A DNA stretch of 64,000 bases from positions 620,001 to 684,000 of the forward strand of contig NZ_CANMVK010000001.1 of assembly GCF_947501405.1 (NCBI RefSeq), read 5' to 3'. Shown one piece after another: positions 54,807 to 60,925 of this stretch. Positions within the stretch are counted from its first letter, which is position 1; each line of letters begins with the position of its first letter. Under the pieces are notes generated by a model. That model had not been told where the DNA came from. It saw nothing but the letters and a program-made list of their open reading frames with translations, and did not search any database. The translations under genes were made by a program, and so were the position numbers. Origin of the DNA: an uncultured Hoeflea sp. (GTDB taxonomy: Bacteria > Pseudomonadota > Alphaproteobacteria > Rhizobiales > Rhizobiaceae).

Positions 54807-55072
54807 GACGGTCCTCCAGATCGGGCACTTCCGCACGCGAGGCGATTCTCGCGCCAAAGCAATAATATTCAGAATTTTATATGTATAGGGAAGCGAACAC
54901 AGGCGTCAATGTCGGTGCCCGGGGAAATCAAGTGTCTCGGGGACACTGGAGAGCCAGGCAGCGCGGTCGCCGACACGACAGACGTTTTCCCCCAGATTCG
55001 CAACAGGCACCCCATTGACACCATGGCCAATGCGGCTCTCCTATGGCGCGTGATTTGAGCACGGGCAGGGTC

Positions 55073-56323
55073 ATGAGATACTCCGCATTTTCGATCTTTC
55101 GCGCGGCACTTGCGGGCAACCGGGGCTGGAAACCGGCATGGCGCAAGCCCGAGCCGAAGCCGCATTACGATGTGATCATCGTTGGTGGCGGCGGACACGG
55201 GCTGGCGACCGCGCACTACCTGGCGAAAAACCACGGCATCACCAATGTGGCGGTGCTGGAGAAGGGCTATCTCGGTTCGGGCAATGTCGGGCGCAACACC
55301 ACGATCGTCCGCGCCAATTATCTGCTTGAAGGCAATGAGCCGTTCTTCGCCCACTCGCTTAAGCTTTGGGAGGGGCTTGAGCAGGAGCTCAATTTCAATG
55401 CCATGATGTCGCAACGCGGGGTGATCAATCTCTATCATTCCGATGGCCAGCGCGACGCCTATGCGCGGCGCGGCAATGCCATGCGGCTGGCGGGCGAGGA
55501 TGCGGAACTGCTCAACCGCGATCAGGTGCGGGAGCTGGCGCCGTTTCTTGATTTTGACAATGCCCGGTTTCCCATTCATGGCGGGCTGATGCAGCGGCGC
55601 GGCGGCACCGCCCGGCATGATGGTGTGGCCTGGGGTTATGCGCGCTCAGCCGATTCCTTCGGTGTCGATCTGATCGAGAATTGCGAAGTGACTGGTATCC
55701 GGCGTGAGGGTGGCCGTGTGACGGGGGTCGAGACCACGCGCGGCTTTATCGGCTGCAACCGGTTGGGGCTGGCGGCGGCCGGCCATTCGAGCCGGGTGGC
55801 CGAGATGGCGGGCATGCGGCTGCCGATCGAAAGCCAGGTGCTGCAGGCCTTCGTGTCGGAGGGGCTGAAACCGTTTATCGATCAGGTGATTACCTTCGGC
55901 GCGGCGCTGTTTTATCTCTCGCAATCCGACAAGGGCGGGCTGGTGTTCGGCGGCAGTCTCGACATGTACAATTCCTACGCCCAGCGCGGCAATCTGGCGA
56001 CGGTGGAAAGCGTCATGGAAGCAGCCTGCGCGCTTGCGCCGGCGGTGGCCCGCGTCAAGGCGCTCAGGGCCTGGGGCGGGGTGATGGACATGTCGATGGA
56101 CGGCTCTCCGATCATCGACAAGACGCCGGTTCAGGATCTCTATCTCAATTGCGGATGGTGCTATGGCGGCTTCAAGGCGACGCCGGCTTCGGGCTGGTGC
56201 TTCGCCCATCTTCTGGCCACCGGCGAGATCCACCCGCTCGCGGGTGCTTTCCGGCTCGACCGGTTTGCGCGCGGCTACCAGATCGATGAAACCGGGCATG
56301 GCGCCCAGGCGAATTTGCACTAG
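55073..56323 (+). CDS. soxB: sarcosine oxidase subunit beta
   Basis: YDVIIVGGGGHGLATAHYLAKNHGITNVAVLEKGYLGSGNVGRNTTIVRANYLLEGNEPFFAHSLKLWEGLEQELNFNAMMSQRGVINLYHS. Confidence 0.95.
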   Translation: MRYSAFSIFRAALAGNRGWKPAWRKPEPKPHYDVIIVGGGGHGLATAHYLAKNHGITNVAVLEKGYLGSGNVGRNTTIVRANYLLEGNEPFFAHSLKLWEGLEQELNFNAMMSQRGVINLYHSDGQRDAYARRGNAMRLAGEDAELLNRDQVRELAPFLDFDNARFPIHGGLMQRRGGTARHDGVAWGYARSADSFGVDLIENCEVTGIRREGGRVTGVETTRGFIGCNRLGLAAAGHSSRVAEMAGMRLPIESQVLQAFVSEGLKPFIDQVITFGAALFYLSQSDKGGLVFGGSLDMYNSYAQRGNLATVESVMEAACALAPAVARVKALRAWGGVMDMSMDGSPIIDKTPVQDLYLNCGWCYGGFKATPASGWCFAHLLATGEIHPLAGAFRLDRFARGYQIDETGHGAQANLH

Positions 56324-56339
56324 CGCGGGGGGAACACTT

Positions 56340-56672
56340 ATGGCCAGTCTGATTAACTGTCCCCATTGCGGCGTGCGGCCCCGGGAGGAGTTCACCATCC
56401 GGGGTGATGCCGGGCCGGTGCGGCCTGCGCCGGACGCGGATTTTGGCGCCTGGGACGCCTATGTGCATCTACGCGACAATGTGCGCGGCCCGATGGCCGA
56501 GCACTGGCAGCATTCGGGCGGCTGCCGGCGCTGGCTGGTGGTGGAGCGCGACACGTTCACCCATGAGGTTTTTGCGGTGGTGGATGCGGCGGACTATACC
56601 CGCGTTCCGGTTGCGAAACCCGCCAGGGCCCGAAAAGCGGCGAACCCTGCCGGGCGGAGGGGCGGCGCATGA
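56340..56672 (+). CDS. soxD: sarcosine oxidase subunit delta
   Basis: INCPHCGVRPREEFTIRGDAG...WDAYVHLRDNVRGPMAEHWQHSGGCRRWLVVERDTFTHEVFAV. Confidence 0.95.
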   Translation: MASLINCPHCGVRPREEFTIRGDAGPVRPAPDADFGAWDAYVHLRDNVRGPMAEHWQHSGGCRRWLVVERDTFTHEVFAVVDAADYTRVPVAKPARARKAANPAGRRGGA

Positions 56673-59600
56673 GCTTTTCCCGGTTTTCCGATGGCGGGTT
56701 GATCGACCGTTCGCAGCGGATCGGATTTTCCTTCGATGGCCGCCGGTTCGAGGGTTTTGCCGGCGATACGCTGGCCTCGGCGCTGCTCGCCAATGGCCAG
56801 GTGCTGATGGGGCGTTCGTTCAAGTATCACCGGCCGCGCGGGCTGCTGAGCGGCGGTGCGTCGGAGCCCAATGCACTGGTGACGCTGGGCGCGGGCGGCT
56901 TGCGCGAACCCAATCTCCGAGCTTCGATGGTGACGCTGCGCGAGGGGCTGAGTGCGGAAAGCCAGAACCGCTGGCCGTCGCTCGGTTTTGATCTCGGCGC
57001 GGTCAATTCGGCGCTGTCGCCATTTATTGGCGCCGGCTTTTACTACAAGACCTTCATGTGGCCGGCGGCGCTGTGGGAGAGGCTCTATGAGCCGGTGATC
57101 CGCCGTGCTGCGGGTCTTGGCCGGGCAAGCCATGCGCCCGATCCTCAGGACTATGAGAAACGCTGGGCGCATTGCGACCTGTTGGTGATCGGCTCCGGGC
57201 CCGCGGGACTGACGGCGGCATTGAGCGCCGCACGGGCCGGGGCACGGGTGATCCTTTGCGATGAGAATGCGCGGTTTGGCGGCCGTCTGATCAGGGACCA
57301 GGTGGAGATCGGCGATCTCGACGGGCCGGGTTTTGCGGCCGAGGTGGCAGATGAACTCGCCGCCAACGCCAATGTGCGGTTGCTGGCAGGCACAACCGTG
57401 TTCGGCTCATACGACAGCGGCGTTTTCGGCGCATTGGAACGGCGTGATGGCGCTTCTTCGGGCCCGGCGCAGCGGATCTGGCGGATCGTGGCCCGGCGCG
57501 CCGTGCTGGCGTCCGGTGCTGAAGAACGGCCCCTGGTGTTTGGCGGCAATGACCGCCCCGGAATCATGATGGCCTCGACGATGCGCGGGCTGATTCATGC
57601 CGAGGCGGTGCGGCCTGGCAATCATGTTGGCGTGTTCACCACCGGCGCTTCCGGCCACGAGACGGCCCGAGATCTGCTGGCGCGCGGTCTCGAAGTGACG
57701 CTGGTTGACAGCCGGCGCGATATCCCGGACGCCGAACGCGCGGCATCAAGGAGCGCACGGGTGCTTGAGGATCACATGGTCGCCGATGCGCTGGGCGGCA
57801 AGGCGGTGTCGGCCATGGAGGTGATCGATCGTGCATCGGGCCGGCGCGAGAGGATCAACATCGATGCTCTTGCGACGTCAGGCGGCTGGAACCCGGTAGT
57901 TGGGCTCGCCTGCCAGCGTGGCGACAAGCCCGACTGGGATACGAACCGCGGCATGTTTGTTCCGCCCGCGGCCAGCGACGGGCTGATGGCTGCAGGAAGT
58001 GCCGCCGGCATTCTGGATCTTGAGGGATGCCTCGACAGCGGAGCCCGGGCAGGAGCCGAAGCCGCCGCCGCGCTCGGGTTCAAGCCGAAAAAGACCTCGA
58101 TCCCGACCGTCCGTGAGGCCTGCGGCGGATCCACGGGGTTTGCAACGCTGTGGCATGTATCAGAAGCGCGCGGCAAGGCCTTTGTCGATTTCCAGAACGA
58201 TGTCACCGTGTCCGATCTCGGCCTGGCGGTGCGCGAGGGCTATGGCCACGTGGAGCTTGCCAAGCGCTACACCACCACCGGCATGGCCACCGACCAGGGC
58301 AAATTGTCCAATGTCAACGCCATCGGCATTCTGGCGGAAAACCGCGGCCTGTCGCCCGACCGTGTCGGGACCACGACGTTCCGGCCGTTTTACACGCCCG
58401 TGAGCATCGGCGCTCTGGCAGGCGAGCATCGCGGCGCGCATTACCGGCCGGTGCGGCGCTCGCCGCTGCATGGCTGGGCGGAAAAACATGGTGCCGTGTT
58501 TATCGAGGCCGGCGCCTGGATGCGGGCCTCGCATTTCCCCCGGGACGGCGAGAGCTCCTGGAAACCGGCCTGCGACCGGGAGTGCGTGGCGGTGCGCGCC
58601 GGGGTTGGCATCTCCGATGCCTCGACGCTGGGCAAGATTGATGTAACCGGCAAGGACGCGGCGCAATTCCTCGATCTGATCTACACCGGCAAGATCTCCA
58701 GCCTGAGCGTCGGCAAGGCGCGCTACGGGCTGATGTTGCGTGAAGACGGTCTGCTGATGGATGACGGCACGGTGAGCCGGTTTGCCGAGGATCATTTCGT
58801 CATCACCACCACCACCGCGGCCGCCGGCGAGGTGATGGCGCACATGGAGTTTTGCGCCCAGGCCCTGTGGCCGGAGCTCGATGTGCGGCTGGTCTCAGTC
58901 ACCGATCAATGGGCGCAGATTACCGTCGCCGGGCCGCAGTCCCGCGCGGTGCTGGTGCGGATCGTCGATGAAGATCTGTCGGAAGAGGCGATGCCGTTTC
59001 TGGCCGCGCGCCCGGTGCGGCTCCATTCAGGTCTCGCGGCCCGGCTGTTCCGGATCTCGTTTTCCGGAGAACTGGCCTTTGAACTGGCGGTTCCGGCCCG
59101 GCATGGCGAGGCGGTGGCGGATGCGATCCTTGAGGCCGGCCGGCCCTATGGCATCACACCCTACGGCCTTGAGGCGCTGAATGTGCTCAGGATCGAAAAA
59201 GGCTTCATCACCCATGCCGAGATTGACGGGCGCACCACGCCGGGTGATCTCGGGCTGGGCAAGATGGTGAGCGCCAAGAAACCGGATTTCATCGGCCGGG
59301 TGATGCTTGCGCGCGAAGGGTTGCAGCGCGACGACAGGGAACAGCTGGTGGGTCTGAGGCCGGTCAGGCCCGATCAGACGGTTCTCGCCGGGGCGCATTT
59401 GCTCAAACCGGACACGGCGCCGACCATGGCCAATGACCAGGGCCATATCACGTCGGCCTGCTGGTCGCCCAATCTGGGTTCGCATATTGCGCTGGCCATG
59501 CTCAGGCGCGGCCGTGCGCGCCATGGCGAACGGCTGATCGCCCATGACCCGCTGCGCGGGTTTGAGAGCGAGGTGGAAGTCTGCGCGCCGGTGTTTTGGC

Positions 59601-60178
59601 CGGCGGAGGAAGCGCAGACTGTGAATACGGAGATGCTGACGGTTGAACATCCCGCGGTGCGTCCCGCTCCTCCCGCGCCGCACGATCTGCTCGATGGCCT
59701 GTTTACCGGGCAGACCGGACAGGCGACGCTTGTCATGGGTTCCGAGACGCTTGTGGCGCTGGTGACGGGGCCTGCTGCGAAAGACCGCGCCGTACGGCGG
59801 GTCGCCAAGGCCGGCGACGGCATCTGCCGGCCGGTGCAGCCTGGGCAGGTGCTGGTGGTGGGCCGAAGCGGCGAAAGCGCCGAGGCGCTGGTCACGCGGC
59901 TCGCCATGCCCCGCGGGCTCAGCCTTTGCGATCTCAGCGACGCGCGGGTGCGACTGATGCTCGCGGGGCCGGAAGCCGCGGAAATACTGGCCGTGTTCTG
60001 CGCGCTCGACCTGGCATCAGGCAGCTTCAAACCGGGCGCCAGCGCCCCGGTTCTGCTCGGCCATATCCCGGCGCAATTGACCTGTGTAGGCGCGCAAACC
60101 TATGAAATCATGGTGTTTTCTACCTATGGGCAGGACCTGGCCGAAAGCCTGTCACGGGCCTTGCGGCTTGCCGGCTGA
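56669..60178 (+). CDS. soxA: sarcosine oxidase subunit alpha fused to a subunit gamma-like C-terminal domain
   Basis: Alpha signature (FDGRRFEGFAGDTLASALLANGQVLMGRSFKYHRPRGLLSGG; YGITPYGLEALNVLRIEKGFI) up to about codon 980, then about 180 more residues (MLTVEHPAVRPAPPAPHDLLDGLF...SLCDLSDARVRLMLAGPEAAEILAVFCALDLASGSFKPGASAPVLLGHIPAQLTCVGAQTYEIMVFSTYGQDLAESL) resembling SoxG; one open frame. Confidence 0.93.
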   Translation: MSFSRFSDGGLIDRSQRIGFSFDGRRFEGFAGDTLASALLANGQVLMGRSFKYHRPRGLLSGGASEPNALVTLGAGGLREPNLRASMVTLREGLSAESQNRWPSLGFDLGAVNSALSPFIGAGFYYKTFMWPAALWERLYEPVIRRAAGLGRASHAPDPQDYEKRWAHCDLLVIGSGPAGLTAALSAARAGARVILCDENARFGGRLIRDQVEIGDLDGPGFAAEVADELAANANVRLLAGTTVFGSYDSGVFGALERRDGASSGPAQRIWRIVARRAVLASGAEERPLVFGGNDRPGIMMASTMRGLIHAEAVRPGNHVGVFTTGASGHETARDLLARGLEVTLVDSRRDIPDAERAASRSARVLEDHMVADALGGKAVSAMEVIDRASGRRERINIDALATSGGWNPVVGLACQRGDKPDWDTNRGMFVPPAASDGLMAAGSAAGILDLEGCLDSGARAGAEAAAALGFKPKKTSIPTVREACGGSTGFATLWHVSEARGKAFVDFQNDVTVSDLGLAVREGYGHVELAKRYTTTGMATDQGKLSNVNAIGILAENRGLSPDRVGTTTFRPFYTPVSIGALAGEHRGAHYRPVRRSPLHGWAEKHGAVFIEAGAWMRASHFPRDGESSWKPACDRECVAVRAGVGISDASTLGKIDVTGKDAAQFLDLIYTGKISSLSVGKARYGLMLREDGLLMDDGTVSRFAEDHFVITTTTAAAGEVMAHMEFCAQALWPELDVRLVSVTDQWAQITVAGPQSRAVLVRIVDEDLSEEAMPFLAARPVRLHSGLAARLFRISFSGELAFELAVPARHGEAVADAILEAGRPYGITPYGLEALNVLRIEKGFITHAEIDGRTTPGDLGLGKMVSAKKPDFIGRVMLAREGLQRDDREQLVGLRPVRPDQTVLAGAHLLKPDTAPTMANDQGHITSACWSPNLGSHIALAMLRRGRARHGERLIAHDPLRGFESEVEVCAPVFWPAEEAQTVNTEMLTVEHPAVRPAPPAPHDLLDGLFTGQTGQATLVMGSETLVALVTGPAAKDRAVRRVAKAGDGICRPVQPGQVLVVGRSGESAEALVTRLAMPRGLSLCDLSDARVRLMLAGPEAAEILAVFCALDLASGSFKPGASAPVLLGHIPAQLTCVGAQTYEIMVFSTYGQDLAESLSRALRLAG

Positions 60179-60319: not shown

Positions 60320-60925
60320 ATGCTCTTCCGGTTTCTATTCAAGCCGCGTGAACCGCAATTCGCGCTGGATGGCGAAATTCGCCTGCGGCGGCTCGGCCAT
60401 TCCGACGCCGCCATTTTTTGCGTCCATATCCACGAGCTGCATTACGAGGATTTCCGGGACCGGTTCAACGGTCTGGTGTCCGATGAGTGGCTCGACAAAT
60501 ACATCGATCGTTCACTCGACAACGCCATCGTGATCGGCGCCTTTATCGGCGATCATCTGGTGGCCGTGGCGGAGCTGCATGCCGGCGGTTACCTGGCCGA
60601 AGGCGAGGGTGAATCGGCCTTCTCCGTGGCGTCGGACTGGCGGCGCAAGGGCCTGGGCACGATCCTCTTGAAGGCGCTGCTCAAGGCTGCGACCGAAAAC
60701 GACATCTCCACCATCATAGTCGAAACCGGGCCGCAGAACCATGCGATGAAGGCGCTGGCGCGGAAGTTCGGCGCCAAGATGCGCTTTACCGGCGATCAGT
60801 CGGTGGGCCGGATCAATGTTGCCGAGGGCCTGCGGCTGGCCGGCCGCCGGAGCGTAATCAAGTCCCTGCCGGCACTGGCCACCTCGCTGGCGGCGACACC
60901 GGGTGGCGCGCAGCCGGCAATCTGA
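60320..60925 (+). CDS. GNAT family N-acetyltransferase
   Basis: IVIGAFIGDHLVAVAELHAGG...FSVASDWRRKGLGTILLKALLKAATENDISTIIVETGPQNHAMKALARKFGAKM. Confidence 0.88.
   Translation: MLFRFLFKPREPQFALDGEIRLRRLGHSDAAIFCVHIHELHYEDFRDRFNGLVSDEWLDKYIDRSLDNAIVIGAFIGDHLVAVAELHAGGYLAEGEGESAFSVASDWRRKGLGTILLKALLKAATENDISTIIVETGPQNHAMKALARKFGAKMRFTGDQSVGRINVAEGLRLAGRRSVIKSLPALATSLAATPGGAQPAI

Follow-up and report, generated by a model that had tools for sequence, protein, structure and literature searches.

A conserved and recurrent soxA-soxG gene fusion in Hoeflea and other Alphaproteobacteria

In sarcosine oxidase of the heterotetrameric type, a demethylating enzyme, oxidation of the N-methyl substrate falls to the beta subunit (SoxB); the alpha subunit (SoxA) binds folate and takes up the one-carbon unit through its GCV_T domain, the delta subunit (SoxD) binds zinc and the gamma subunit (SoxG) is taken as a structural partner. 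The closest described system is the heterotetrameric SoxBDAG enzyme (TSOX; PDB 2gag, 1vrq), solved with its alpha, beta, delta and gamma chains; both the overall reaction and the organization of glyA-soxBDAG-purU operons have been described (PMC3691474). N-methylglutamate dehydrogenase is a SoxBDAG-like enzyme paralogous to TSOX, and SAR11 bacteria carry two sox-like operons, one of which has been postulated to encode an N-methylglutamate dehydrogenase (PMC3160333). A four-gene architecture is common to TSOX and N-methylglutamate dehydrogenase, and genomes with two sox-like operons are already known.

The window analyzed here, a stretch of 64,000 nucleotides from an uncultured Hoeflea sp., contains a sox operon that has in common with TSOX the four modules and their order (B-D-A-G), and each of the four solved TSOX chains has a sequence match in it. 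In contrast to TSOX, however, alpha and gamma are encoded as one polypeptide, and the operon comprises three genes instead of four. Its features, and the next gene downstream, are the following:

55043..56323, plus strand: soxB, beta subunit, a DAO-fold flavoprotein encoded by a separate gene (TIGR01373, 703 bits; PDB 1vrq_B/3ada_B, E ~6e-134)
56343..56672, plus strand: soxD, delta subunit, a separate gene (PF04267 SoxD, 102.5 bits; 1vrq_D, E 5.5e-16, with Cys/His motifs aligned)
56669..60178, plus strand: soxA-soxG fusion, one polypeptide of 1169 aa (same unbroken ORF in 12 other Hoeflea species)
56669..59596, plus strand: SoxA (alpha) module, aa 1-976 (TIGR01372, 1322 bits; match to 1vrq_A), with Pfam domains Fer2_4 (aa 16-100), Pyr_redox_2 (170-369), SO_alpha_A3 (502-585), GCV_T (600-865) and GCV_T_C (892-976)
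59597..59749, plus strand: variable linker, aa 977-1027 (alignment of fused genes; dN/dS 0.63)
59750..60175, plus strand: SoxG (gamma) module, aa 1028-1169 (evidence given below)
60320-60925, plus strand: GNAT acetyltransferase

The fused frame opens with an ATG, which forms an ATGA overlap with the soxD stop, and runs for 1169 codons without an internal stop, a length far above chance expectation. Its SoxA part is assigned by TIGR01372 with 1322.5 bits over aa 4-981, against a curated cut-off of 1164, while SoxD scores above the PF04267 cut-off and slightly below that of TIGR01374 (109.1 versus 116.5 bits). The operon thus retains the separate beta and delta genes of the heterotetrameric type, but not its four separate polypeptides, since alpha and gamma share one stop-free ORF in 13 Hoeflea species. 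No separate soxG follows the fusion and the next plus-strand gene is the GNAT, as a sequence-only reading of this DNA had stated; unlike in the glyA-soxBDAG-purU operons (PMC3691474), no glyA or purU was seen adjoining the fused operon. A second sox operon in the same genome (contig C4, ~215.9-221.4 kb) presents a complete soxB-D-A-G set, with a SoxA 45% identical to the fused SoxA and a soxG whose start lies 5 nt ahead of the soxA stop. Unlike the fused gamma, the SoxG of this operon is a separate protein of 191 aa that scores above the curated SoxG cut-off; apart from it and the fusion, the source genome has no high-scoring SoxG.

The identification of the tail as a gamma domain combines position, profile and structure. 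The tail lies directly after SoxA in the same ORF, where relatives have a separate soxG. Analyzed alone, it matches the SoxG model TIGR01375 with 62.6 bits (E 3.7e-17), below the curated cut-off of 143.95, the match spanning aa 1041-1164 within the full fused chain, and the PF04268 (Pfam SoxG) search gave no report for the Hoeflea tail, GCV_T, a related fold, appearing at E 5e-5 instead. The TIGR01375 cut-off is a strict one: 40 of the 398 genomes of the order lie above it and 278 have a match at E <= 1e-4, a set that includes weak matches to GCV_T domains; among the other SoxGs tested, two separate proteins and the tail of the second fusion presented below also fall slightly under the cut-off. 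A single-sequence search with the window tail reached 1vrq_C at E 1e-3, and a profile of 44 sequences (fused tails and separate SoxGs) retrieved the gamma chains 2gag_C (E 1.6e-24), 1vrq_C and 3ad7_C, all at about 1e-24. AlphaFold2 modeling of the gamma tail on the same alignment yielded a pLDDT of 88.6, and a Foldseek search of this model against the PDB returned 2gag_C first (E 1.3e-12, TM 0.70), with 1vrq_C also among the top matches. The matches ranked after the gamma chains are GcvT-fold proteins that include the SoxA alpha subunit, and hence the fold of SoxG is also that of the alpha GCV_T domain; a weak match of TIGR01375 falls on this domain in the fused SoxA itself (window 58769-59095). 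The fused chain thereby contains two related folds, one in its gamma part and one in the alpha GCV_T domain. Together, the profile comparisons and the predicted structure strongly support the tail as a SoxG (gamma) domain. That the last 180 residues might belong to an ordinary SoxA does not hold, because separate SoxA proteins end about 10 residues past the start of the tail. A structure model of the full-length fused chain was too poor for use (pLDDT 40).

Within Hoeflea, a marine genus, 13 of the 18 species in the sample, the source genome included, carry the unbroken fused gene, with lengths of 1161-1169 aa. Identity to the window protein is 75-78% in 11 of the fused relatives and 68-69% in the twelfth, and the assemblies involved are separate ones, some of them near-complete and in a single contig. 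The claim of a single 1169-aa alpha-gamma polypeptide finds strong support in profile, structure and phylogeny and in these 12 further species. In another Hoeflea genome (G008) a fused-type gene is broken off by the contig edge after 653 matching residues, and in G007, G010 and G014 the second, ordinary sox operon alone was seen. Genome G001, placed in Hoeflea, has its soxA and soxG as two genes from a different lineage, in an unfused operon (L052) that groups with other genera and not with the Hoeflea fusions, which suggests transfer or paralogue loss. A single-sequence search of the genome contigs with the tail gave no match, and an alignment-based search of the same contigs returned nine Hoeflea records. 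In G003, a relative of phosphorothioated-DNA-binding restriction endonucleases (L136 7015-7899; 82.6 bits, below cut-off) is encoded upstream of the fused operon.

Besides the 12 other Hoeflea species, the search for the same fusion in related genomes, proposed in the sequence-only reading, identified two other lineages:

Genome G081, L063 2641-6162, minus strand: second SoxA-SoxG fusion, 1174 aa, in another family of the same order (SoxG part 123.7 bits)
Genomes G1193 and G1170, L115 1639-5079 (minus strand) and L116: third SoxA-SoxG fusion, shared by two species of genus g532, alphaproteobacteria of another order (tails 38-44 bits with TIGR01375)

Several other long open frames (1195 in G262; also G697, G799, G662, G527, G631, G787 and others) were discarded as fusions, as they have a normal stop after SoxA and their surplus open frame lies upstream. 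In SoxA trees that were quick, carried SH-aLRT support only and sampled one genome per species from part of the phylum, the 13 Hoeflea fusions form a single clade (support 100), the G081 fusion stands apart from that clade, paired with an unfused gene (99), and the g532 fusion falls within a group that also includes four genes of its own family without the fusion (100). A single clade of the Hoeflea and G081 fusions, the two covered by the AU test, was rejected (p 0.0044), and three fusion changes were counted on the 83-row tree. According to these phylogenies, the alpha-gamma fusion arose at least three times in the alphaproteobacteria. Its recurrence may reflect the adjacency of the two genes and the one-to-one joint action of alpha and gamma. 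Parallel fusions that always join gamma by its N-terminus to the C-terminus of alpha, from genes that would have overlapped in different frames, might further suggest selection for a pre-assembled unit and not accident, an interpretation that we advance tentatively and with slightly more doubt than confidence.

The arrangement of the separate genes bears on how the join was made. In most relatives with separate genes, soxG starts at an ATG or GTG located 5 nt before the soxA stop, generating an overlap of 8 nt with soxG in the +1 frame. This soxG start is very frequent across the class (e.g. L052, L087, L053), and the conservation of the overlap suggests translational coupling. Of the 67 separate genes in the 83-row tree, 55 have soxG in frame +1 with respect to soxA, eight in frame 0 and one in frame +2, with three unassigned, and parsimony on this tree places the +1 state on the stem of every fusion. 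With a +1 ancestral frame, translation past a soxA stop lost by point mutation would not be in the soxG frame, and a net indel of -1 or +2 is required. The sequence-only reading had attributed the fusion to loss of the soxA stop; the subunits are indeed joined, but with 55 of 67 relatives having soxG in the +1 frame this cause is probably incomplete, and the fusion probably required a frame-changing indel beyond the stop loss alone. Each fusion would thus derive from a gene pair with an 8-nt overlap and different reading frames, through an indel that shifts the frame and bypasses the soxA stop, or it may have followed a two-step path via the frame-0 spacing present in some relatives. Simple stop loss from a frame-0 soxG (as found in G892, G883, G886, G893 and G332) was considered and set aside, given that the tree places these genes away from the fusion stems. 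The g532 fusion keeps the last SoxA residues (FFDPEGERMRG, followed by SoxG) and the Hoeflea fusion replaces the last ~10, so the two joins do not lie at the same point.

The explanation that best fits these observations, to which we assign a probability of about 0.92, is a real and fixed soxA-soxG fusion that provides one alpha-gamma chain for a heterotetrameric-type sarcosine oxidase of three chains. Together with SoxB and SoxD, the chain would build a three-chain enzyme, either a sarcosine oxidase or a closely related oxidase/dehydrogenase of N-methyl amino acids, in which the gamma domain, with its folate-binding-like (GcvT-like) fold, would be tethered by the variable linker to the C-terminal domain of alpha, and the covalent linkage predicts a 1:1 alpha:gamma stoichiometry. 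Adjacent genes can also be joined by single-base errors, and an assembly or sequencing error might have dropped the stop or shifted the reading frame between two genes that are in fact separate. The chance of this is negligible, since the unbroken frame recurs at near-constant length in the separate assemblies of the 12 further species, and the two fusions in other families likewise argue against sequencing error. It is also conceivable that the frame is open but that gamma is made also, or mainly, as a separate protein, through an internal start or cleavage of the linker, whose variability might suit a loose segment or one open to cleavage. An internal start would fit the ATG at 59633 and the in-frame GTG codons found in the linker of several Hoeflea species. 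The ATG is indeed present and in frame, as codon 989, and the sequence-only reading had noted it as a potential start of a 181-aa SoxG-like protein. It does not mark where soxG originally began, because it lies within a 3-residue insertion unique to the source genome and no start codon is conserved at its position across the fused Hoeflea genes. The conserved GTG at codon 975, in turn, is expected as the V of a PVF motif, GTG being the commonest valine codon in the fused genes (713 of 1220). Nearly all separate SoxA proteins checked end ~10 residues past this PVF, where the fused tail begins, and the linker stands in place of those last ~10 residues and of the SoxG N-terminus; alpha ends slightly before the position of about 59610 given previously, SoxA homology stopping at about residue 976 (window 59596). 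Separate production of gamma is accordingly judged improbable.

Almost equally improbable, though marginally less so, is that the tail represents a decaying or repurposed gamma remnant outside the active enzyme. The reduced SoxG model score of the Hoeflea tail is compatible with such a remnant, and so are the changes on the Hoeflea stem in conserved gamma motifs, where DQSHGRVR became DLSDARVR, RSFAESLW became STYARDLAESL and LAKG lost its lysine. The faster evolution of linker and tail relative to SoxA is likewise compatible with it: over 78 Hoeflea gene pairs, the median dN/dS is 0.15 in SoxA, 0.63 in the linker and 0.33 in the gamma domain. The value of 0.33 for the tail and the gamma fold confidently retained in its predicted structure speak against decay, however, and separate SoxG proteins likewise evolve faster than SoxA. 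At SoxA identities of 80-85%, gamma identity is 55% for fused (29 pairs) and 53% for separate proteins (4 pairs), and the two sets of gamma identities overlap across the range of SoxA identity common to both. On these sequence comparisons, the pace at which the fused gamma evolves is normal for a gamma, and the reading of the tail as a working part of a three-chain enzyme is preferred.

With regard to function, the fused operon is predicted by homology to encode a sarcosine-oxidase-type enzyme. No clue to the substrate was found among the genes neighboring the operon, and no glutamine synthetase III-type protein over cut-off was detected in the source genome, which therefore lends no support to an N-methylglutamate pathway.

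No earlier report of a SoxA-SoxG fusion was found in the open-access literature searched. The enzyme is already known in kind, and what is described here is a real, conserved and recurrent fusion of known subunits, a natural case in which two subunits of a complex enzyme of glycine betaine breakdown are made as one chain. Because the role of gamma in sarcosine oxidase is poorly understood, this natural fusion offers a direct means of testing whether gamma must stay with alpha.
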